Shown here piece after piece: positions 18,846 through 63,207 of a stretch of DNA of 64,000 nucleotides; position 1 is the stretch's first letter; each line of letters begins with the position of its first letter. The notes below the pieces were generated by a model. The model worked only from the letters and a program-made list of their open reading frames with translations. It searched no databases and was not told where the DNA came from. The stretch comes from Patiria pectinifera (taxonomy: Eukaryota; Echinodermata; Asteroidea; Valvatida; Asterinidae). The position numbers were made by a program, and so were the translations under genes. Where the stretch lies: the NCBI GenBank assembly GCA_029964075.1, contig CM057142.1, positions 38,442,392 to 38,506,391 of the forward strand. The letters are read 5' to 3'.

Positions 18846-18853
18846 ATTCCCAT

Positions 18854-21312
18854 CAGTGTTGTAGTCGAGACCGGATAGTCCGAGACCAAGACCAAGACCG
18901 AGACCTGAAGTTGCGAGACCGAGACCGAGACCGAGACCAACCCCTTCAAGGCGGACCGAGACCGAGACCGAAATGGTCCGAGACCGAGACCGAGACCGCG
19001 GATAATAAATAACAATAATCTAAATTTAAAAAAACAAGACACTAATTACAGCTGAACAGTCTGTCCTTGAGATGTTGATGTTCATGGGGATGTGAAGGAA
19101 GTGATTGAAAGTTAGGAATCACCTGTACCTGCTTAATTGGGTCATGCGAGTGTTCTTCATGTGTGCTTCATACCATAAATTACAACATGGCAACAGAATT
19201 TGTTATTGTCCAATCAATTTTTTTAAAAAAGGGAAACAACCTAATTTAAAGAAGGGGAAAACCTTATTTGATGAACTCCATATATTGTTGCCACTTTTTT
19301 GAAAACACATTTTTTTAAATATAATATTGTTTAACTACTATAAAGTGTCAATCTGATGAAGAAACTCTAACTTTATAGGAGTACGGCAATTTGTACTAGT
19401 TTTTTGCAATGTTGAAACTTGACAAAAGTAAAAAGTTAAAGGTGGATGTTTCATCTGTTATAGGAACTAAACTAAACTGTTACAGGACCCTAAACTCCAC
19501 AGCCACCCCTTGGTTTCAGCAATGACTACTAACGGATATTTAAAAGCAGCTTTAATTTTACATTGGACCTCCTTGTAAACCTGATTCAAAAAAAATTTGG
19601 AGCAAGAAAATATTGATTTATTTTTTAAAATTTCAGTCATGGAATATAGACTTGTACATGTAGACCCAAAAATTGAGAGGTGGTCGCCAGAGAGGCCTGG
19701 CTTAGGCTGAAATGTAATGCCACTTTATTTGTGTATAATGTCAATACCATTACATACACTATAGAAGATCGATGAACCATATTTGCCTGATCTATCTTCT
19801 GTTAATCTGCCCGCCGTCATCATCGCCATTAGCCTATTTGAGAATATGGCCGACACAATAGAAGGGCGCTGTCACAAACTGAATGTGGTGGGCGAGATGT
19901 ACTTTTAGGATTCATGGCTGCGTGCGCACGCCTATTTGTGTTTTAGTAATTTACAAGTACAACATATTGCCAATATTTCAATCGTTTATTGTGATGGCCG
20001 TAAACAGCATTTAGCGATTAATGGAACAAAAGTCTTCTCGACTCATGCAAACACAATTGACATTTAGAAAGGAGACAATGCAGGCAATTAGACTCTATTT
20101 TAGTGTGACTATGGCAGTAGCTCAATTTGTGTTTATCACAGATGAAAAGATGAATACATGGCAAGTCAAAAATAAAGTGACAGTATGATAAAGAAAAAGA
20201 AATGGCACCCTCCATTTTGTAAAAAAAAATATATAATTGGGATAAAGAACATGTTATTGAGTAGCAACTCTGAAAATTTCACGTAATTTGCATTCTCCAT
20301 TCCCAAGTCGTGCCTATTTTAATAAAGAGATCACAAAATTCAGCTGTCCACCACTAAGGCCAAAAAAAAAATATTCGGTCTCTGGTCAGACCAAAGTTCC
20401 GGAATTGACGCGGCCACGCGGCTTTTTTTTTTCAAGCTTGGTTTGTACAGACAAGGTGGGTACTATTTTGCTTTTTGGTGTCCTCATGTATATTGGTGTC
20501 CTCCATAATTTGCCTTGGTGCTTTCGATCATTTGCCTTGGTGCAATTTCCCATTCCTTGGTGCTCTTTGGTAAAAAAAATGAGGAGGTGCAGAAAAAGAG
20601 GGCGCTGTTGGAGCTATCGCGGAACATTTTGGAAAAAAAAAATCGACGCGCATGATTAAAATCGACGCGCGCGCTGACCAGAGACTGACTTTTTTTTGGG
20701 GTCTAATAGCAATTTAACGGTCTACGAATTGATGAATATCCATTAATAAATATAATGAAAAAAAAAACGTTTTCCCGCCTCCACGAATAAAGTTAAAATT
20801 GAAAAGGAAAATAGAAAAAAAATCACCAACATTTCTGGGGAAAAAGAGTTGAATTGTTTCCCATATTCAAAACAAAAAATCTGACGGTAAAAATAATGTT
20901 TTAATCTTGATTCATAAGATTTTAATCTCAGTTGTATTTGGAATCAATGAGGATGGCTATAAAGTGCTTGTTTCAACAAACCATCCCACAATAAAAACAA
21001 GAAATAAGAAAAGGAGCAATGGTTGTTGGACTATGCCTCACTCACTAGAAAGTGAAGAGAGACATGTCTATCAGCATCACACTGCAGTCACATTTGCCCT
21101 CAACTGATTCTTTACTTAATCCAAAACTGGGGCCGGGGCAGAATCCGCCCCCCTCACTTTTTGGCTGGTCTCGACTCGAGACCAGCCAAAATATCGAGAC
21201 CAAAGGGGACCGAGACCGAGACCACAGCTCCCGAGACCGAGACCGAGACCGAGACCAGCAAAAAGTGGTCTCGAGACCGAGACCGAGACCGGTCTCGAGA
21301 CCTACAACACTG
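18854..21312. mobile_element. hAT-like non-autonomous element X, full-length copy X1
   Basis: The element runs from CAGTGTTGTAGTCGAGACCGG to the inverse CTACAACACTG and is flanked by a perfect 8-bp duplication ATTCCCAT (18846-18853 and 21313-21320). The CAGTG terminus and 8-bp duplication fit the hAT superfamily. The outer 150 bp at each end is an array of GAGACC/GGTCTC hexamers. The interior has no transposase. A Harbinger-type MITE interrupts it at 20358. Relatives lie at 51091, 54670, 58781 and 61821. Confidence 0.85.
20358..20703. mobile_element. Harbinger-type MITE, copy 2, inside X1
   Basis: The left end is GGCCAAAAAAAAAATATTCGG, and TAA flanks both sides (20355-20357 and 20704-20706). 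The X copies at 51.7, 55.3 and 59.4 kb have the uninterrupted sequence CCACTAATAAC at this spot, so the insertion and its 3-bp duplication are confirmed by empty sites. Confidence 0.85.
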
Positions 21313-21745
21313 ATTCCCATAGACACTAGTGCTAAATGCCAGTACTTCAACATTCTTTTAAAAATACTCATTACTCTAACCGTGAGGTATTCAAGCTGCA
21401 CAGGAAAATGATGAGCAACACGTCATCTTTCATTTTCTGTTCATGTTTTGGTGGGTTGACTACTGGCTTTTCGAGGTATTCTCACCCAAAGAAGACACGA
21501 CCCCTATTTTCCCCAAGGCGGAAAAGTAGCCATCTTAAAAGACGATTCCCGCCTCCACAACATGTCAAAATAGCACCAGTTTCGAGCCCAATAGCATCCA
21601 AAAATGCTCAGAATCGGAAGCCCCAAGTCCAGGCCAGTGGTTCATTACCATATCTCTGCAATTCCCCAATTTCTCTCAGAACTCTAATATAGAATATTTT
21701 GAGGGTATAACTTTTGCAATTTTGCAGGCGTGCACCCTTGGTGGT
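21313..21745. repeat. diverged repeat unit, copy B
   Basis: This is the partner of 18378-18845, starting at the target duplication of X1. No coding potential seen. Confidence 0.45.
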
Positions 21746-50178: not shown

Positions 50179-51090
50179 TCAACTCCAGCAGAAGCAGAGA
50201 CATGATCTTATTCAACTTACTTACGGAAATGGATATGATGTTTGACTGGGAATCGAGAAAGTGCAAGTTTTGTTCAAACGGTAAATTCAGCCCAAGTTCC
50301 CTCCTTGACCATCGGATAGAATCGAAGATTTACCTTATCGGGTTGGGGATCGTTATAGACTTCGTCATACACGCACCAGCATGGTTAAACACTCAAGTTG
50401 CGTTAACTTCCGGTTCCAAATGGTTTCAATGCTACTTAATGTGCAGTGGGCGTAATGAAAACTGAAGTGACGTCACACTGACGAGCAGTATTGAACTCAC
50501 TAGGCTACAAGCTACAGGCTATTATCTTGTGGATTTCTCTTAACACCACGTTAAAAGGACACGGTTATTGGTTTCACATGTATTTCACATGTTTTACATG
50601 TATTTCTCGGTGTGTGTTCATTGACAGTGCGATAGTTGGTGACATAACTTGCAAATTCAAGGAACAGAACAGATCATAACATCATATTTAACATTGGTCA
50701 GCCGTTGGGAGCGCGGGGGGGGGGGGTAGCCACCCCAACCGCCCCCTTCAGCCGCCCCTGTTTTTTGGTTTAATAGTTTTTGCCATCTATACTGGGCTTT
50801 TTTGTATTCCTTTTAGTGTTGCATTTTTATTACTTTCGTGAAGAGGGAATAAATATTCCGAAAGAATAGGCCTATAGGCCTACATGTAGGACGGGACGCT
50901 GCATTGGTTCGGCAAGCTCAAAATTCAAGCCCCTGTCACGTATCCGTATGGATTGTGCGTGTTTTGTCATCACTTTTTTTAAATGTAGGTCATTTGTTTT
51001 AGAAACGGCTCTTTCTACGTACTTCTGAGAGAAGGGGATCAGTAGAACACAAAATAAATTAGTAAGATATATACGGCAGGACCTAAATAA

Positions 51091-52320
51091 CAGTGTTGTA
51101 GGTCTCGAGACCGGTCTCGGTCTCGGTCTCGAAACCACTTTTTGCTGGTCTCGGTCTCGGTCTCGGTCTCGGGAGCTGTGGTCTCGGTCTTGGTCTCGGT
51201 CTCGGTCCCCTTTGGTCTCGATATTTTGGCTGGTCTCGAGTCAAGACCAGCAGCCAAAAAGTGAGGGGGCGGATTTCGCCCCCCCGGCCCTTTTAGGGTT
51301 TAGTAAAGAATCAGTTTGAAGCAAATGTGACTGCAGTGTGATGCTAATGGACATGTCTCTCTTCACTTTCTAGTGAGTGAGGCATAGTCCAATAACCATT
51401 GTTCCTCTTCTTATTTCTCGCTTTTATTGTGGGGTGGTCTGTTGAAACAAACACTTTATAGCCATCCTTATTGATTCCAAATACAACTGAGATTTAAATC
51501 TTATGAATCAAGACTGAGACATTATTTTTACCGTTAGATTTTGTATTTTGAATATGGGGAACAATTCAACTCTTTTTCCCCAGAAATATTGGCGATTTTT
51601 TTTTTCTATTTTCCTTTTCAATTTTTCCTTTATTCGTGGAGGCGGGAAAGCGTTTTTTTTTTCATTATATGTATTAATGGATATTCATCAATTCGTAGAA
51701 TGGTAAATTTGTTATTAGTGGTGGACAGCTGAATTTTGTGATCTCTTTATTAAAATAGACACGACTTGGGAATAGAGTATGCAAATTACGTGAAATTTTC
51801 ACAGTTACTACTCGATAACATGTTCGTTATCCCGCTTATATTTTTTACAAAATGGAGCGTGCCATTTCTTTTTTTTAATCAAACGGTCGCTTTCTTTTTT
51901 ACTCGCCATGTATTTATCTTTTCATCTGTGATAAACACAAATTGAGCTACTGCCATAGTCACACAAAAACAGATTCTAATTGTCTGCCTCGTCTCCTTCC
52001 TAAATGTCAATTGCGTTGGCACGAGTCGAGAAGACTTTGTTCCATTAATCGCTATATGCTGTTTACGGCCATCGCAATAAACGATTAAAATATTGGCATT
52101 GTGTCGTAGTTGTAAATCACTAAAATATTTAAGTAAATCGCCCTGCAAAGTAGCCGATGCGGGCGATACGCTGGCACGGTACAAAACACAGAGAGGCGTG
52201 GGCACTGAGCCATGAATCCTAAAAGTACATCTCGCCCACCACATTCAGTTTTGTGACAGCGCCCTTCTATTGTGTAGGCCATATTCTCAAATAGGCTATG
52301 ACGATGATGACGGCGGGCAA
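51091..52320. mobile_element. hAT-like element X, 5' half, unit 1
   Basis: Starts CAGTGTTGTAGGTCTCGAGA after CTAAATAA, with a GGTCTCGG array to about 51260. It follows X1 in reverse orientation and stops at the unit junction after GACGGCGGGCA, so the other end is missing. Confidence 0.8.
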
Positions 52321-52473
52321 ATTAATAACTATTCATAAGATGAATTGGGCCGGAGTGATTTAAATGACGAAATTAATACGTTGGCACTTTTTTATCGTGT
52401 AGCGTGCGACCATAATTGATCAGTGTGACGTTAATTGCCACTCTAGCGTCCAGCATAAGAAGGCAGGCACCAG

Positions 52474-52480
52474 TATAAAA
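52474..52480 (+). promoter_or_regulatory. TATA box of lectin copy 2
   Basis: TATAAAA lies 94 bp before the ATG. The aligned positions read TATGAAA in copies 1 (about 48971) and 3 (about 56056), so only this copy has a consensus TATA box. Confidence 0.55.
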
Positions 52481-52567
52481 ACCAGTGTACAAGACAGTGT
52501 AGGAGATAGGAAGTTCGATTTCTCGCTTCTTGCAAATTAATGTGAAGTCGGGTTCATTTTGAAAAGC

Positions 52568-53071
52568 ATGAAGAGCAACGCGAATGTCATAACTTTTTGC
52601 ACTGTGGCGGCAATGTTGCTGCTGCACCTCCGGGTGGTAGCGGCGTGCATGGCCTGCCGTACGCCGTGGATAAGTTTCCAGAGCCACTGCTACCTCTTGG
52701 TTACCGAGAAAAAGAACTTCGACGAAGCTGAGGCCCACTGCCAGGAATTATCCCGCCATGGTAAACCTTCTCATCTGATGTCCATCAAAAGTCCAGAGGA
52801 GCACGATTTCCTCCTCGAGTTGATCACTGCCACCTACGGTCACCGCCCAGATATCTGGTTTGGGTGTCGCCTGGATCGCACCAACGGATCCTTTTACTGG
52901 TTGGACGGCAGTCCGCTTGGTGATTACACTAACTGGAAGTCGGGTGAGCCCAACGACGTGAACGGCCCAGAAGACTGCTGTCAAATATTCGGCAAACAGG
53001 ACTTGTGGAACGACAATAAGTGCAGCATTGCCCTAGGGTTCGCTTGCAAGACTTCCACAAGATTTTCTTAA
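52568..53071 (+). CDS. secreted C-type lectin, copy 2
   Basis: Frame of 167 codons from the ATG at 52568, same architecture as copy 1: signal peptide, then one C-type lectin domain with EPN at 127-129 and WND at 147-149. It is the most diverged copy near the binding face: RPDIWFGC replaces RQNIWFGY (Cys100 is an extra, unpaired cysteine), GPEDCC replaces GQEDCC, and FGKQD replaces YGDQD/FGDQD. KKNF replaces NKTF near residue 50, which removes an N-K-T glycosylation site. It is the only copy with a TATAAAA upstream. These points fit a diverging paralogue. Confidence 0.85.
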   Translation: MKSNANVITFCTVAAMLLLHLRVVAACMACRTPWISFQSHCYLLVTEKKNFDEAEAHCQELSRHGKPSHLMSIKSPEEHDFLLELITATYGHRPDIWFGCRLDRTNGSFYWLDGSPLGDYTNWKSGEPNDVNGPEDCCQIFGKQDLWNDNKCSIALGFACKTSTRFS

Positions 53072-53176
53072 TTTCTGTTAATGATGTCACAAAATAGCCA
53101 GTGATCTACGGAGGGCAGGAGGTGCATCGTGTGTCGTTACATTGGGATATACGTATCATTCGATTTATGATTGGCT

Positions 53177-53694
53177 GTAACATCCACTCGTGCAGCAAAT
53201 CAGTCAAAGAAATAGCCTACAAAACCCTCATCAGACCGAAGCTTGAGTACTGCGCATCAATATGGGATCCTCATCACAACAACACCAAGGCATCTCTTGA
53301 GAAAATCCAACGCCGAGCTGCTCGCTTTGTTCAAAATGACTACAGCAGGAACTCAAGTGTCACAAACATAATGCTGGCAAACCTCCGATGGGAACCTCTC
53401 GCAAGTCGTCGCACCAAACTCCGCTTAATTTCCATCTTTAAGGGAGTCCATAATATCACTCCATCAAACGTCAACTGTCGCAAGAACATCATAATATCCA
53501 TCAGACTGATATGCAAACCGGGCCTTAGAAACCCCACCATTCAACAAAAACTGTTACCAGTACTCATTCTACCCCCGGACAACTCGCGAATGGAACATCC
53601 TCCCACCAGACGTTAGAGCTCAACCTGACAGCAAATCTTTCAAAAAGAAACTGGATCAAATAAACATGGATGAGCTGGTCAAAAAAGCTTATTA
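53177..53694 (+). mobile_element. LINE 3' fragment, unit 2
   Basis: Best early frame of the three: KEIAYKTLIRPKLEYCASIW through NIMLANLRWEPLASRRTKLR. The later LINE end is frame-shifted. AATAAA near 53661 could end the lectin transcript. Confidence 0.8.
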
Positions 53695-54669
53695 AAATCT
53701 AATCACCTCCGCCACACTGACCTATGTGATATAACCACCATCTGGTAGTGTTTGCATAGTATCCAGCAGAAGCAGAGACATGATCCTATTCAACTTACTT
53801 TTACGGAAATGGATATGATGTTTGACTGGGAATCGAGAAAGTGCAAGTTTTGTTCAAACGGTAAATTCAGCCCAAGTTCCCTCCTTGACCATCGGATAGA
53901 ATCGAAGATTTACCTTATCTGGTTCGGGATCGTTATAGACTTCGTCATACACGCACCAGCATGGTTACACACTCAAGTTGCGGTTAACTTCCGGTTCCAA
54001 ATGGTTCCAATGCTACTTAATGTGCAGTGGGCGTGATGAAAACTGAAGTGACGTCACACTTACGAACAGGATTGAACTCACTAGGCTACAAGCTACAGGC
54101 TATTATCTTGTGGATTTCTCTTAACACCACGTTAAAAGGACACGGTTATTGGTTTCACATGTATTTCACATGTTTTACATGTATTTCTCGGTGTGTGTTC
54201 ATTGACTGCGGTAGTTGGTGACATAACTTGCAAATTCAAGGAACAGAACAGATCATAACATCATATTTAACATTGGTCAGCCGTTGGGAGCGGGGGGGGG
54301 GGGGGTAGCCACCCCAACCGCCCCCTTCAGCCGCCCCTGTTTTTTTGTTTAATAGTTTTTGCCATCTATACTAAGCTTTTTTGTATTCCTTTTAGTGTTG
54401 CATTTTTATTACTTTCGTGAAGAGGGAATAAATATTCCGAAAGAATAGGCCTATAGGCCTACATGTAGGACGGGACGCTGTATTGGTTCGGCAAGCTCAA
54501 AATTCAAGCCCCTGTCACGTATCCGTATAGATTGTGCGTGTGACGTCATCACTTTTTTTAAATGTAGGTCATTTGTTTTAGAAACGGCTCTTTCTACGTA
54601 CTTCTGAGAGAAGGGGATCAGTAGAACACAAAATAAATTAGTAAGATATATACGGCAGGACCTAAATAA

Positions 54670-55900
54670 CAGTGTTGTAGGTCTCGAGACCGGTCTCGGC
54701 CTCGGTCTCGAAACCACTTTTTGCTGGTCTCGGTCTCGGTCTCGGTCTCGGGAGCTGTGGTCTCGGTCTTGGTCTCGGTCTCGGTCCCCTTTGGTCTCGA
54801 TATTTTGGCTGGTCTCGAGTCGAGACCAGCAGCCAAAAAGTGAGGGGGCGGATTCCGCCCCCGGCCCTTTTAGGGTTTAGTAAAGAATCAGTTTAAAGCA
54901 AATGTGACTGCAGTGTGATGCTAATAGACATGTCTCTCTTCACTTTCTAGTGAGTGAGGCATAGTCCAATAACCATTGTTCCTCTTCTTATTTCTCGTTT
55001 TTATTGTGGGGTGGTCTGTTGAAACAAGCACTTTATAGCCATCCTTATTGATTCCAAATACAACTGAGATTTAAATCTTATGAATCAAGACTGAAACATT
55101 ATTTTACCGTTAGATTTTGTGTTTTGAATATGGGGAACAATTCAACTCTTTTTCCCCAGAAATATTGGCGATTTTTTTTTTCTATTTTCCTTTTCAATTT
55201 TTCCTTTATTCGTGGAGGCGGGAAAGCGTTTTTTTTTTCATTATATGTATTAATGGATATTCATCAATTCGTAGAACGGTAAATTTGTTATTAGTGGTAG
55301 ACAGCTGAATTTTGTGATCTCTTTATTAAAATAGACACGACTTGGGAATAGAGTATGCAAATTACGTGAAATTTTCACAGTTACTACTCGATAACATGTT
55401 CGTTATCCCGCTTATATTTTTTACAAAATGGAGCGTGCCATTTCTTTTTTTTAATCAAACGGTCGCTTTCTTTTTTCTTTTTTACTCGCCATGTATTTAT
55501 CTTTTCATCTGTGATAAACACAAATTGAGCTACTGCCATAGTCACACAAAAACAGATTCTAATTGTCTGCCTCGTCTCCTTCCTAAATGTCAATTGCGTT
55601 GGCACGAGTCGAGAAGACTTTGTTCCATTAATCGCTATATGCTGTTTACGGCCATCGCAATAAACGATTAAAATATTGGCATTGTGTCGTAGTTGTAAAT
55701 CACTAAAATATTTAAGTAAATCGCCCTGCAAAGTAGCCGATGCGGGCGATACGCTGGCACGGTACAAAACACAGAGAGGCGTGGGCACTGAGCCATGAAT
55801 CCTAAAAGTACATCTCGCCCACCACATTCAGTTTGTGACAGCGCCCTTCTATTGTGTTGGCCATATTCTCAAATAGGCTATGACGATGATGACGGCGGGC
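54670..55900. mobile_element. hAT-like element X, 5' half, unit 2
   Basis: Same limits as in unit 1: preceded by CTAAATAA, opens CAGTGTTGTAGGTCTCG, and is cut at the unit junction. Confidence 0.8.
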
Positions 55901-56149
55901 AAATTAATAACTATTCATAAGATGAATTGGGCCGGAGTGATGTAAATGACGAAATTAATAAGTTGGCACTTTTTCATCGTGTAGCGTGCGACCATAATTG
56001 ATCAGTGTGACGTTAATTGTCACTCTAGCGTCCAGCATAAGAAGCCAGGCACCAGTATGAAAACCAGTGTACAAGACAGTGTAGGAGGTAGAAAGTTCTA
56101 TTTCTCGCTTCTTGCAAATTAATGTGAAGTCGGGTTCATTTTGAAAAGC

Positions 56150-56653
56150 ATGAAGAGCAACGCGAATGTCATTACTTTTTGCACTGTGGCGGCAATGTTG
56201 CTGCTGCACCTCCGGGTGGTAGCGGCGTGCATGGCCTGCCGTACGCCGTGGATAAGTTTCCAGAGCCACTGCTACCTCTTGGTTACCGAGAACAAGACCT
56301 TCGACGAAGCTGAGGCCCACTGCCAGGAATTATCCCGCCATGGTAAACCTTCTCATCTGATGTCCATCAAAAGTCCAGAGGAGCACGATTTCCTCCTCGA
56401 GTTGATCACAGCCACCTACGGTCACCGCCAAAATATCTGGTTTGGGTATCGCCTGGATCGCACCAACGGATCCTTTTACTGGTTGGACGGCAGTCCGCTT
56501 GGTGATTACACTAACTGGAAGTCGGGTGAGCCCAACGACGTGAACGGCCAAGAAGACTGCTGTCAAATATTCGGCGACCAGGACTTGTGGAACGACAGTA
56601 AGTGCAGCATTGCCCTAGGGTTCGCTTGCAAGACCTCCACAAGATTTTCTTAA
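56150..56653 (+). CDS. secreted C-type lectin, copy 3
   Basis: Frame of 167 codons from the ATG at 56150. Signal peptide, one C-type lectin domain, EPN at 127-129, and WNDSKC instead of WNDNKC at 147-152. It is closest to copy 1 over the binding region (RQNIWFGY, GQEDCC) and shares ENKTFDEAEAHC with its N-K-T site. The core promoter position reads TATGAAA. Confidence 0.85.
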   Translation: MKSNANVITFCTVAAMLLLHLRVVAACMACRTPWISFQSHCYLLVTENKTFDEAEAHCQELSRHGKPSHLMSIKSPEEHDFLLELITATYGHRQNIWFGYRLDRTNGSFYWLDGSPLGDYTNWKSGEPNDVNGQEDCCQIFGDQDLWNDSKCSIALGFACKTSTRFS

Positions 56654-56758
56654 TTTCTGTTAATGATGTCACAAAATAGCCAGTGATCTGCGGAGGGCCG
56701 GAGGTGCATCGTGTGTCGTTATATTGGGATATACATATCATTCGATTTATGATTGGCT

Positions 56759-57279
56759 GTAACATCCACTCGTGCAGCAAATCAGTCAAAGAAATAGCCT
56801 ACAAAACCCTCATCAGACCGAAGCTTGAGTACTGTGCATCAATATGGGATCCTCATCACAACAACACCAAGGCATCTCTTGAGAAAATCCAACGCCGAGC
56901 TGCTCGCTTTGTTCAAAATGACTACAGCAGGAACTCAAGTGTCACAAACATATGCTGGCAAACCTCCGATGGGGAACCTCTCGCAAGAATTCGCACCAAA
57001 CTCCGCTTAATTTCCATCTTTAAGGAAGTCCATAATATCACTCCATCAAACGTCAACTGTCGCAAGAACATTATAATATCCATCAGACTGCAAACCGGGC
57101 CTCACATCTTAGAAACCCCACCATTCAACAAAAACTGTTACCAATACCCATTCTACCCCCGGACAACTCGCGAATGGAACATCCTCCAACAAGACGTTAG
57201 AGCTCAACCTGACATCAAATCTTTCAAAGAGAAACTGGATCAAATAAACATGGATGAGCTGGTCAAAAAAGCTCATTAA
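56759..57279 (+). mobile_element. LINE 3' fragment, unit 3
   Basis: Retains the extreme C-terminus FYPRTTREWNILQQDVRAQP and a stop at about 57277, the usual LINE ORF2 end signature. Internal frameshift near 56950, as in unit 1. Confidence 0.8.
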
Positions 57280-57565
57280 AATCTAATCACCGATCCGCCA
57301 CACTGACCTATGCGTTATAACCACCATCTGGTGGTGTTTGCATAGTATCCAGCAGAAGCAGAGACATGATCCTATCAACTTAATTACGGAAATGGATATG
57401 ATGTTTGACTGGGAATCGAGAAAGTGCAAGTTTTGTTCAAACGGGTAAATTCAGCCCAAGTTTCCTCCTTGACCATCGGATAGAATCGAAGATTAACCGG
57501 CCCATGGTACCTCATCGGGTTCGGGATCGCTATAGACTTCGTCATACACGCACCAGCATGGTTAC

Positions 57566-58074
57566 AGGGAATATACATCATTTGCTTTTGCTGTAATTTT
57601 CAGAAATGGATGGAATTGGGGGGTTGGAAATATATAGCAAATATAGTTACACTGACTTTTTTGAGGTTTTGGATTCGAAAATGCTATAAAAACCAAGAAA
57701 AACGATCGTTTTCCTGCAGTCTGGTTCCCTGACTCCATATAAGAAGAGCAGTTTACATACATTGGGGAATTGTAAGGTCAGGGAACCAGTCTAGCTGGCT
57801 CGTACCCGTTCATAGGTTTGTAATCGATTGCAAACAAGTGCGATGGTCAATTTGGGCCAGTATTTGAAAAAAAAGCCAGTTGTTTCCAACGCTGATCGGC
57901 CGATCAGCGTTGGAAATTGATACAAAAATACCACTTTTCTTGAAAATGACAGTATACCAGGTGCCATGATTTTACAGGATGCTTTACACTGTCATTCACT
58001 AACAGTCCAGCAAGGTATTTCAAAATGATTTGGTAGTTTTATTTTTTGATGTTTGCAAATGTTGTGTTTTCCCT
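57566..58074. mobile_element. piggyBac-type MITE inserted only in unit 3
   Basis: Ends are AGGGAATATACATCATTTGC and, inverted, AGGGAAAACACAACATTTGC. TTAC lies before and TTAA after; units 1 and 2 read GGTTAMACACTCAAG without it. The centre has a perfect 28-bp palindrome around GATCGGCCGATC (57887-57914). Confidence 0.8.
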
Positions 58075-59863
58075 TTAAACACTCAAGTTGCGTTAACTTC
58101 TGGTTCCAAATGGTTCCAATGCTTCTTAATGTGCAGTGGGCGTGATGAAAACTGAAGTGACGTCACACTTACGAACAGGATTGAACTCACTAGGCTACAA
58201 GCTACAGGCTATTATCTTGTGGATTTCTCTTAACACCACGTTAAAAGGACACGGTTATAGGTTTCACATGTATTTCACATGTTTTACATGTATTTCTCGG
58301 TGTGTGTTCATTGACAGTGCGGTAGTTGGTTCCATAACTTGCAAATTCAAGGAACAGAACAGATCATAACATCATATTTAACATTGGTCAGCCGTTGGGA
58401 GTGGGGGGGGGGGGTAGCCACCCCATCCGTCCCCTTCAGCCGCCCCTGTTTTTTTTTGTTTAATAGTTTTTGCCATCTATACTGGGCTTTTTTGTATTCC
58501 TTTTAGTATTGCATTTTTATTACTTTCGTGAAGAGGGAATAAATATTCCGAAAGAATAGGCCTATAGGCCTACATGTAGGACGGGACGCTGTATTGGTTC
58601 GGCAAGCTCAAAATTCAAGCCCCTGTCACGTATCCGTATAGATTGTGCGTGTGACGTCATCACTTTTTTTAAATGTAGGTCATTTGTTTTAGAAACGGCT
58701 CTTTCTACGTACTTCTGAGAGAAGGGGATCAGTAGAACACAAAATAAATTAGTAAGATATATACGGCAGGACCTAAATAACAGTGTTGTAGGTCTCGAGA
58801 CCGGTCTCGGTCTCGGTCTCGAAACCACTTTTTGCTGGTCTCGGTCTCGGGAGCTGTGGCCTCGGTCTTGGTCTCGGTCTCGGTCCCCTTTGGTCTCGAT
58901 ATTTTGGCTGGTCTTGAGTCGAGACCAGCAGCCAAAAAGTGAGGGTGCGGATTCCGCCCCCCGGCCCTTTTAGGGTTTAGTAAAGAATCAGTTTAAAGCA
59001 AATGTGACTGTACTGCAGTGTGATGCTAATAGACATGTCTCTCTTCACTTTCTAGTGAGTGAGGCATAGTCCAATAACCATTGCTCCTCTTCTTATTTCT
59101 CGTTTTTATTGCGGGATGGTCTGTTGAAACAAGCACTTTATAGCCATCCTCATTGATTCCAAATACAACTGAGATTTAAATCTTATGAATCAAGACTGAA
59201 ACATTATTTTTACCGTTAGATTTTGTGTTTTGAATATGGGGAACAATTCAACTCTTTTTCCCCAGAAATATTGGCGATTTTTTTTCTATTTTCCTTTTCA
59301 ATTTTTCCTTTCGTGGAGGCGGGAAAGCGGTTTTTTTTTCATTATATTTATTAATGGATATTCATCAATTCGTAGAACGGTAAATTTGTTATTAGTGGTG
59401 GACAGCTGAATTTTGTGATCTCTTTATTAAAATAGACACGACTTGGGAATAGAGTGTGCAAATTACGCGAAATTTTCACAGTTACTACTCGATAACATGT
59501 TCTTTATCCCGCTTATATTTTTTACAAAATGGAGCGTGCCATTTCTTTTTTTTTTATCATTCGGGTCACTTTGTTTTTGACTCGCCATGTATTTATCTTT
59601 TCATCTGTGATAAACACAAACTGAGCTACTGCCATAGTCACACAAAAATAGATTCTAATTGTCTGCCTCGTCTGCTTCATAAATGTCAATTGCGTTTGCA
59701 CGAGTCGAGAAGGCTTTTGTTCCATTAATCGCTATATGCTGTTTACGGCCATCACAATAAACGATTAAAATATTGGCAATACAATACTTGTAAATCACTA
59801 AAATATTTAAGTAAATCGCCCGGCAAACTGGTAGCCGATGCGGGCGATACGCTGGCACGGTAC

Positions 59864-60348
59864 TAGCCTTTAGTCAAGTCCCACGCGCCTATACCTGGAC
59901 CATCCGGACACGTAACGCACCCCGGATGCTGGCACGTAAAAAGACTAGCACGAGTGGCGAAGCCGCGAGGGCCTTTACTTTCTCGTGGAACTAATGACTT
60001 ATTCATTAATTCACGTAATATATAATGATCAAGCAATATAAACCAATCATCTAACGGTGGTTTGCGGTTACCAGCAACAGCACGCGCGCCTTGGCGCGCG
60101 TGCTGTCTGGCGCCAGACGACGGCTGAATTACTTTTAAAAATTCTGCATTTTCATTGGTCAATTCACAACGGGTAATGCATTGTGCATGTCTACTAAATC
60201 GGTAGACAAAAGTAAAGAAAAACATAAGCGTTCTCTGCGAGACGGTAAAGGCCCTCGCGGCTTTGCCGCTCGTGCTAGTCTTTTTACGTGTCAGCATCCG
60301 GGGTGTGTCACGTGTCCGGGTAAGCGCGTGGGACTTGACTAAAGGCTA
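59864..60348. mobile_element. MULE-like MITE, 125-bp inverted ends
   Basis: Ends TAGCCTTTAGTCAAGTCCCA and its inverse, with arms matching for about 125 bp. A 9-bp duplication GCACGGTAC flanks it (59855-59863 and 60349-60357); units 1 and 2 have a single GCACGGTAC. A 9-bp duplication with long ends fits Mutator-like elements. A GCACGCGCGCC/GGCGCGCGTGC hairpin marks the centre. Confidence 0.85.
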
Positions 60349-60712
60349 GCACGGTACAAACACAGAGAGGCGTGGGCACTGAGCCATGGATCCTAAAAGT
60401 ACATCTCGCCCATCATATTCAGTTTGTGACAGCGCCCTTCTATTGTGTCGGCCATATTCTCAAATAGGCTAATGGCGATGATGACGGCGGGCAGATTAAC
60501 AGGAGGTAGATCAGGTTCATCGATCTTCTATAGTATATGTAATGGTACTGACATTAAACAAAAATAAAGTGGCATTACATTTCAGCCTTAGCCAGGCCTT
60601 CTTCAGAGGTAAATGCAATGACAGAGGAACAAGAAACAAACATGTAGGGGACACACAAACATGAAGGGTTGGAAGGAGAATCACAAACTTTAGGGATGGG
60701 GGGGGGCAGACC

Positions 60713-61415
60713 GGTTACAGCCCTATTGTCCGAAGGTTCTTTTCCGAAGGGTCATTAGTCCGAAGGTCCAATAGTCCGAAGGTTCGATAGTCCTAAGGTT
60801 CGATAGTCCAAAAATAGAATAATGTTAATTAATCCGAAGGTTCGACAGTCCGAATAGATGATAGGGTTTCGATAGTCCGAATCGACAATAAGGTTCGATA
60901 GTCTGAATAGATGATAAGGTTCGATAGTCTGAATTGACAATAAGGTTCGACAGTCCGAATTGAGCATAAGGTTCGATAGTCTGAATGGGCAATACGGTTC
61001 GTCAGTCTGACTCTTCGGACTATCGGACCTTACTGTTGATTCAGACTATCGGACCTTATTGTCGATTCGGACTATCGGACCTTATTGTCGATTTGGACTA
61101 TCGGACCGTATAGTCTTTTCAAACTATCGAACCTTCCTGTCAATTCGGAATTATGAACCTTCGGACTATTGAATCTTATTTTCGTTTCGGACTATTGAAC
61201 CTTCGGACTAATTAACCTTATTCTAAATTCGGACAACTGAACCTTCGGACAAATGAACCTTTGAACTATTGCATGAAATGTTCGGATTAACGGACCTTAT
61301 TTCATTTTCGGACTAACGAACCCCCTCTTATGAATATTTTGTGCATTCGGACTACCGAACCTTCGGACTAAAGAACCTTCGGACCATCGGACCTTCGGAC
61401 TATCGGGCGGCCCCC
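60713..61415. mobile_element. TCCGAAGGTTC foldback element, copy 2
   Basis: 703-bp imperfect palindrome flanked by an 8-bp duplication GGCAGACC (60705-60712, 61416-61423). Left-half units are GGTTCGATAGTCCGAA, spaced by short variable segments; the right half is the inverse. The end resembles copy 1 at 45929. Confidence 0.8.
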
Positions 61416-61820
61416 GGCAGACCAGTGTGGATGAAGATAAAAGGGGATATGGGAACAAAGGTATGCTGTGGAAAGAATCAGAGGGAAGGAAGTGACAACG
61501 CGCGGGGGGGGGGGGGGAACAAAGACTATTAATGAATGTGGCGTTCATGCGAATGAGGAGGGGGGGGGTAATAATGGGAGGGGTGGGTAACACGTAGATG
61601 GGGAAAAGGGTAAAGTTGAAAGGGAAGGCAACAAAGGAGGTGATAAACCCCAAGAGGGTTAGCCAGTGTTACCTGATACAAAACACAATTGAGGAAAAAC
61701 ATTAATCGTTGCCTTGTTGGATGTTGAGACCATGTGGTTCAACAGTCCGAAGACGCTTCATCCACACTTTCTCCCTGCTAAGGCGAACTGAGTCCTTGCG
61801 ACGGCCTTGTGACTCAATAC

Positions 61821-61945
61821 CAGTGTTGTAGGTCTCGAGACCGGTCTCAGTCTCGGTCTCGAGACCACTTTTTGCTGGTCTCGGTCTCGGTCCCCTTTGG
61901 TCTCGATATTTTAACTGGTCTCGAGTCGAGACCAGCCAAAATGTC
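61821..61945. mobile_element. X-element end fragment inside Penelope-like fragment
   Basis: CAGTGTTGTAGGTCTCGAGA, then GGTCTCGG units to GAGTCGAGACCAGCC at about 61939. It breaks the Penelope-like frame. Confidence 0.7.
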
Positions 61946-63207
61946 GAAATTTGAGTCGCGCACATAAAGCAAAGTAAGTACCGATTTATGCAATAAGGGC
62001 CAACCATTTTCGGGGATTGTATAGTTTATTATATAGCCCACCCCTGTGGGCGTTAACTCAAGTATTTTTTATTTTTAAAATATATGAGGTGCTCCAAATT
62101 AGTGACATTTTCGACCCCAATCTTCTCTTTAATTTGGGATAGTATTTTGGAGAAAGAGTACATTTTTCTACCTGATTTTCCAGTAATGAATTCACACACT
62201 CTTACCAGTTACCACTCACTGTCGTCATGAGAGTGTATGATAACACTCGATTTTCTGGCTGCTCATTTGAAGTACCCCATTATTCCTCAAAAAGCAAAAT
62301 CCCAGTCAGAAAAAAATAAAAATCCATATCTGGCTACCACCTTTCAACTTTTGGGTCTACATGTACAATTCTTTATTCCATGACTGAAATTAAAAAAAAT
62401 AAATCAATATTTTCTTGCTCTAAATTTTTTTTGGAATTATGTTTACAAGGAGGTCCAATGTAAAATTAAAGTTGCATTTAAATATCCGTTAGTAGTCATT
62501 GCTGAAACCAAGGGGTGGCTGTGGAGTTTAGGGTCCGAGTTCCTATAACAGATGAAACATCCACCTTTAACTTTTTACTTTTGTCAAGTTTTAACATTGC
62601 AAAAAACTAGTACAAATTGTCGTACTCCTAAGTTAGAGTTTCTTCATCAGATTAACACTTTATAGTTAGTTAAACAATAATGTAAAAATGTAAATTTCTA
62701 TAGCGCCGAATCCATTAAAATATGCTTAAAAAACACCCCAAAAAATATTTAAATATTTTTTCTTTCTGAAGTAGCAACAATATACGGAGTTCATCAAATT
62801 AGGTTTTCCCCTTCTCTAAATTAGGTTGTTTCCAATTTTTTTAATTAATTGTAACAATAACAAATTCTGTTGCCATGCTGTAATTTATGGTATGAAGCAA
62901 ACATGAGGAGCACTCGCATGACACAATTAAGCAGGTACAAGTGATTCCTAGCTTTCAATCACTTCCTTCACATCCCCATCAACATCATCATCTCAAGGAC
63001 AGACTGTTCAGCTGTAATTAGTGTCTTGTTTTTATTTGGATTATTGTTATTTATTATCCGCGGTCTGGGTCTCGGTCTCGGACCATTTTGGTCTCGGTCT
63101 CGGTCCGCCTGGAAGGGGTTGGTCTCGGTCTCGGTCTCGGTCTCGCAACTTCAGGTCTCGGTCTTGGTCTCGGACTATCCGGTCTCGACTACAACTCTGC
63201 TAAATAA

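Follow-up and report, generated by a model that had tools for sequence, protein, structure and literature searches.

The two array-ended elements present in a 64,000-nucleotide stretch of Patiria pectinifera DNA (hereafter the window, which lies on contig C14 of the 613.5-Mb genome searched) are probably non-autonomous members of a large hAT clan of this sea star, in which the hexamers that build the element ends most likely act as binding units for the N-terminal BED finger of the transposase. From the sequences we infer that the arrays serve as sites for BED fingers, and that the specificity of these fingers has diversified inside a single genome. The assembly of P. pectinifera comprises 22 pseudochromosomes, and a large hAT fraction was reported once unclassified repeats had been reclassified (PMC10511450). 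No description of the family was found among the literature matches listed, Repbase lying outside this search.

Each element appears to possess two unlike ends: end A, which would lie upstream of the transposase gene and in which a palindrome of units touches the tip, and end B, the other one. The elements and their parts are located in the window as follows (TSD, target site duplication):

18846..18853, + strand: left copy of the 8-bp TSD ATTCCCAT of element 1
18854..18864, + strand: tip CAGTGTTGTAG, B end of element 1
18867..18997, + strand: B-end array of element 1, 12 GAGACC units in a single orientation
18854..21312, − strand: element 1, 2,459 bp, a non-autonomous GAGACC element; its ends and internal pieces match locus L059
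21167..21302, − strand: A-end array of element 1, 15 units in both orientations (12 + 3), with the palindrome GGTCTCGAGACC beside the tip
21302..21312, − strand: tip, A end of element 1
21313..21320, + strand: right copy of the TSD ATTCCCAT of element 1
51091..51237, + strand: A end of a segmental duplicate of element 2, 14 units
54670..54827, + strand: A end of a second segmental duplicate of element 2, 14 units
58773..58780, + strand: left copy of the TSD CTAAATAA of element 2
58781..58926, + strand: A end of element 2, tip and 11 exact units, 12 bp shorter than in the segmental duplicates
58781..63199, + strand: element 2, 4,419 bp, of the same family as element 1, broken by nested insertions
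61821..61933, + strand: extra A end nested in element 2, tip and 10 units
63068..63199, − strand: B end of element 2, 11 units and a tip with one mismatch
63200..63207, + strand: right copy of the TSD CTAAATAA of element 2

The tips, hexamer arrays and duplications reported in the preliminary description were confirmed at their positions. Element 1 (2.46 kb) carries the 11-bp tip CAGTGTTGTAG at each end and is flanked on both sides by a perfect 8-bp TSD. Its left ~147 bp (end B) contain 12 GAGACC units that all run in one direction, and its right ~150 bp contain 15 GAGACC/GGTCTC units, 12 one way and 3 the other. Locus L059 (5,638 bp), which also has GAGACC arrays, matches both ends and internal pieces of element 1; for this reason element 1 looks like a deletion derivative of a longer, L059-like element.

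The second of the two sites for which perfect 8-bp duplications had been claimed also stood, with CTAAATAA intact on both flanks of element 2 and a single mismatch in its 3′ tip. What had to be corrected is its setting, which is part of a local triplication (50491–59400) and includes nested insertions. The 5′ half of element 2 occurs three times in the window (at 51091, 54670 and 58781). Since all three copies share CTAAATAA and their upstream 600-bp flanks are 97–98% identical, they are segmental duplicates of one insertion, copied together with its surroundings. Two further features were observed inside element 2: diverged short repeats akin to TTCGGACTATCGAACC, in both orientations (60720–61420), and an insertion (59857–60349) with inverted repeats of ~85% identity (59857–59985 / 60238–60349).

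Tips and arrays occur in tight association. Genome-wide, the exact tip was found 2262 + 2238 times (4,500), versus 152 + 166 (318) for the reversed control, a tip count that corresponds to about 2,000 elements. Strings composed of the tip and the start of the array, at fixed spacing, number 242 (end A) and 320 (end B), versus 0 each in reversed controls. In the window, 87 of the 99 GAGACC/GGTCTC hexamers fall within the 1,021 bp that the arrays occupy (a density of 85 per kb, versus 0.19 per kb elsewhere), so the array hexamers are not there by chance. The reading that the arrays are independent microsatellites adjoining the tips by accident, for which nothing speaks except their repetitive look, is contradicted by these counts, by the fixed spacing and by the convergent pairing of the ends, and has in our judgement practically no chance of being correct.

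The pairing was analyzed for those of the first 100 places of each string that lie on C1–C8 (74 of the 242 A ends and 96 of the 320 B ends). Of 47 convergent neighbouring ends within 12 kb, 43 are A/B, 4 are B/B and none is A/A, which means that most elements carry one A and one B end; the non-convergent neighbours in this sample comprise two divergent and one same-strand case. Sizes of about 1.4 or 2.2 kb are common, and the median size is 1,813 bp. We also observed short B/B elements of 170–204 bp (L108, L109 and L110), in which the inner repeat is CACAAGACC and not GAGACC, and of which L110 has a duplication with one mismatch.

Target site duplications were assessed in 20 tip pairs from C1, picked by tip alone. 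Perfect 8-bp TSDs were seen in 14 of them (the number of independent cases being somewhat lower, as L046 duplicates L045 and the duplications of L050 and L051 are reverse-complementary, while the perfect match at L052 uses the second of two overlapping tips), one pair had a TSD with one mismatch and in five none was seen; it is thus not the case that most of the sampled copies lack them. Perfect 8-bp TSDs are also present at both window elements and at L060, L061, L111 and L113, and TSDs with one mismatch at L047 and L112; no clean duplication was seen in the inspected flanks of L059, L108 and L109. The hAT transposases prefer targets of the form nTnnnnAn. Of the 16 perfect TSDs counted, 12 have T as their second base and 10 have A as their seventh, which may reflect this preference. 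The terminal inverted repeats (TIRs) are the convergent 11-bp tips, with one mismatch in one tip of L059, L060 and L061; those of hAT elements are short, 10–25 bp (PMC3942097).

A genome search for Dimer_Tnp_hAT gave at least 94 matches and, of 30 such loci fetched, several adjoin hexamer arrays or exact tips. Tips and perfect TSDs delimit both L060 (5,132 bp) and L061 (5,084 bp), and a third copy of this kind, on C12, has the 8 bp GTCGCTGC on both flanks. An exon of the L060 lineage matches PF05699 (Dimer_Tnp_hAT; 2.9e-16) and Hermes (1.2e-6), and the BED finger of this lineage matches PF02892 (zf-BED; 1.1e-6, above the cut-off). With regard to an RNase H-like DDE core, the values for DUF659 were 9.2e-7 (L062 exon, below the curated cut-off) and 0.0046 (L060 exon), and catalytic residues were judged by eye. 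These ~5.1-kb relatives, together with the 14 of 20 perfect TSDs, support the hAT assignment made in the preliminary description and supply longer hATs with the same end structure. The coding pieces of the longer relatives appear to be split by introns; the transposase was read as exon pieces, and we claim no copy to be intact (L059 has a stop codon inside the finger exon). The BED-finger exon lies ~0.6–0.9 kb inside end A in most loci in which the 5′ tip was found, and in finger-bearing loci with a recognisable A end this end is upstream of the finger exon. On contig C22 we observed ~1.2-kb GAGACC elements with slightly different tips (L018–L021), which contain a dimer-domain exon; they are probably segmental copies, as TTACATAT follows all of them.

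The arrays themselves expand and contract, as had been noted from the window. The A-end array columns of nine copies yield 66 pairwise gaps, of which 43 measure exactly 6 or 12 bp and the remainder 1, 7, 13, 19 or 33–52 bp; in the eight copies that have an anchor in end A, its distance from the tip varies between 106 and 157 bp. Since the A end of element 2 is 12 bp shorter than those of its own segmental duplicates, units are gained or lost in place. Such whole-unit change, even among segmental duplicates, also fits neutral homogenisation, in which the ends would contain microsatellite-like arrays held uniform by slippage and gene conversion, a new unit could spread through an array by chance, and any correlation with the finger would reflect common descent only. 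We consider this unlikely, because the A-end units occur in both orientations, some of them with non-repeat spacers, and yet one hexamer prevails at both ends, and because minimal elements retain the array and little else. Thus L111, a 100-bp element, contains hardly anything except its tips and GAGTAC-like units, and 14 GAGACC units are present in L113, a 153-bp element of the A/B type; as both have perfect TSDs, a tip plus an array seems, to judge from these sequences, to be sufficient in cis.

The tip is not specific to GGTCTC, which had been presented as its hexamer. Elsewhere in the genome, CAGTGTTGTAG tips bear other hexamers, and five dialects were distinguished on the same tips: GAGACC, GAGGCC, GAGTCC, GAGTAC and GAGTCA. 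The 82 distinct tip-bearing ends, a sample partly chosen by finger or transposase and not a random census, comprise 25 with GAGTAC, 18 with GAGACC, 18 with GAGTCC, 9 with GAGGCC, 3 with mixed GAGTCA units and 9 with none of these. Arrays of four GAGNNC units number 1,453, versus 24 in the control. Of the 24 testable elements, 23 have one leading hexamer in common between their two ends (6.1 expected), and 4 more of the 28 examined had too few units for this comparison, at one end or at both; the sole disagreement is a tie in an element with mixed GAGTCC/GAGTCA units, and the mixed L041 and L047 were counted as agreeing. In L041, L047 and L053, GAGTCC and GAGTCA units are mixed at both ends, and these elements are possible intermediates between dialects.

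Landmarks of the end layout are shared across dialects. In all four main dialects end B shows the tip, TC, unit 1, a spacer of 9–10 bases and unit 2 at nearly equal distances, and end A shows the unit palindrome and a T-rich spacer; cross-dialect alignments were relied on for these landmarks only, the remainder being periodic. End A of the GAGGCC dialect starts with GGTCTC, possibly as a relic. A further dialect was observed at three loci with a hAT dimer domain (L033, L035 and L037), which lie near arrays of the CAAGTC/AAGTCA type and for which no corresponding finger was found.

The dialect of an element is correlated with its BED finger. The 5′ flank was read for 51 finger loci (in three batches of 30, 15 and 6), and 31 of them (17/30, 9/15 and 5/6) have at least five hits of one dialect hexamer or of an overlapping frame, a count that includes L117 with its GATTCC repeats. 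In the other 20, no dialect array of at least five hits is present in the DNA read; five of these loci have unrelated or low-complexity repeats, and for L093, which is one of the 20, only 181 bp were fetched, although the genome-wide tip-and-array places include a GAGACC A end at a distance of 618 bp on its upstream side. In Hermes, the bases are contacted by R63 (main chain), Q64, T65, S66, N67 and R70, followed by the zinc ligand H71 (PMC10368747), and the P. pectinifera fingers share its S-N-x-x-R-H pattern. The residue equivalent to Hermes Asn67 is Ala in all seven GAGACC loci (L067, L082, L093, L115, L118, L119 and L120). Among the 25 other loci for which both the dialect and this residue could be read it is Asn in 22, Tyr in one, Lys in one and Ala in one (L117); this group includes L107, whose GAGTCA label was taken over from 3′ ends in related loci, L075, which may owe its array to a neighbour, and several decayed GAGTAC fingers.

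Six of the loci were fetched after the Ala67 rule had been noticed, with a query that favoured Ala67 fingers. Of the five that bear arrays, four have a GAGACC-type array (with 5, 7, 6 and 4 exact GAGACC units in L115, L118, L119 and L120, respectively, plus some AAGACC) and L117 does not; L116 has no array. L117 combines Ala67 with GATTCC repeats, a mismatch to the rule, and is 93% identical before the helix to the GAGACC-linked L118; its repeats represent either a recent switch or a neighbouring element.

When each of ten lineages is represented by one locus, the four GAGACC lineages have Ala and the six with other dialects have Asn. Such a perfect split by label has a chance of 1 in 210, but L117 lies within one of the four lineages and the query was biased towards Ala. 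Over the remainder of the finger, the GAGACC lineages are 41.5% alike among themselves, versus 39.5% to the others, and 108 of the 210 random sets of four are as alike or more so, although some 45 residues at such divergence carry little signal and fingers of ~60 aa make a weak phylogeny. Neutral homogenisation can draw on the fact that finger and array are inherited on one element; that the four lineages are no closer elsewhere in the finger argues against a simple common descent of finger and word.

A second rule, linking Lys70 with GAGTAC, was rejected, as Lys70 is also present in the GAGACC lineages L115 and L120. The GAGGCC and GAGTCC fingers have identical contact residues, and L085 and L076, which are 80% identical before the helix and have the same contact residues, are nevertheless associated with GAGTCC and GAGTCA, respectively. 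A fold search returned no BED structure among the matches listed.

The hexamers might instead be sites for a host factor, i.e. a repressor or an architectural zinc-finger protein, and not for the transposase. Hermes offers a precedent: it needs ends of ~200 bp even though mutation of the putative inner BED sites caused no strong loss of activity, and the authors suggest a cellular factor (PMC10368747). In P. pectinifera, the dialect varies with the finger that the element itself encodes, at the position corresponding to a base contact in Hermes, and several dialects on the same tips in one genome would need several host factors; this alternative therefore appears highly improbable. The proposal of the preliminary description, that the hexamer is a transposase-binding unit, gained support from the minimal elements, from the agreement of the ends (23/24) and from the correlation with the BED finger, which together make binding, as such, the probable function.

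We propose that a multimeric transposase would dock on the arrays through its many BED fingers, with the A-end palindrome presumably occupied first, after which the catalytic core would cut at the shared CAGTGTTGTAG tip and insert the element with an 8-bp duplication. The arrays gain and lose units; as the specificity of the finger shifts over time, the units at both ends would shift along with it, with the tips and the landmarks of the end scaffold being kept, and we infer that selection, not drift, lies behind this matched change. There is in our estimation an even chance that the full course of events was a radiation of distinct hATs, in which the shared tip and landmarks were kept, ~25–30 units per element were rewritten together with the BED helix, residue 67 (Ala or Asn) reads base 4 of the unit, and the mixed GAGTCC/GAGTCA elements are intermediates.

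Parts of this arrangement have counterparts in known systems. Maize Ac/Ds has 11-bp TIRs, 8-bp TSDs and non-autonomous elements that keep only the ends, and its transposase binds multiple AAACGG hexamers within 200 bp of each end; the portion of the source drawn on here names one hexamer type and mentions neither a set of dialects on one tip nor a 100-bp element of tips plus array (PMC3260210). In Hermes, BED fingers bind short subterminal repeats, the ends are asymmetric and a quasi-palindromic pair near the left tip resembles the A-end palindrome described here, but the motif is AAGT and must be followed by AT-rich DNA (PMC10368747), whereas well-preserved sea-star ends contain roughly 10–18 GC-rich units, with several hexamers per genome. 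The right end of Hermes binds no BED domain, and mutating the putative inner BED sites of its left end caused no strong drop in transposition (PMC10368747), so the long arrays at both sea-star ends need not all be bound. For CGGBP and hAT-19, diverse specificities were measured for BED-containing domains of related hATs, and the motifs of the four hAT-encoded domains match subterminal regions of their own Repbase models; these comparisons run across species and concern mostly domesticated host genes (Yellan et al. 2021, PMC8097297), whereas in the sea-star clan the diversification is among the transposons of one genome, with one shared tip, and both the array and the finger can be read. Kat1 of Kluyveromyces, a domesticated hAT, has the hexameric subterminal motif AATTCA, with six repeats between the TIRs; it differs in being a domesticated locus with one hexamer and, as far as the text consulted goes, no many-unit arrays (PMC4763223).

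The apparent novelty is that, within a single genome and on one common tip, such hexamers seem to have radiated together with corresponding changes in the finger. The clan bears on how a transposase and its dozens of scattered sites come to change specificity jointly, splitting families beyond cross-mobilisation: several outcomes of such changes seem to be preserved in one animal genome, finger and target side by side. If the radiation did take place, the clan documents in nature how a transposase altered its way of reading DNA, and it could yield a recognition code for BED fingers, which are also found in host ZBED and CGGBP proteins.

Some short array-ended elements (L049, L066 and L089) were found to retain the BED-finger exon, whole or as a remnant, without the rest of the transposase; if expressed, these fingers might compete for the arrays.
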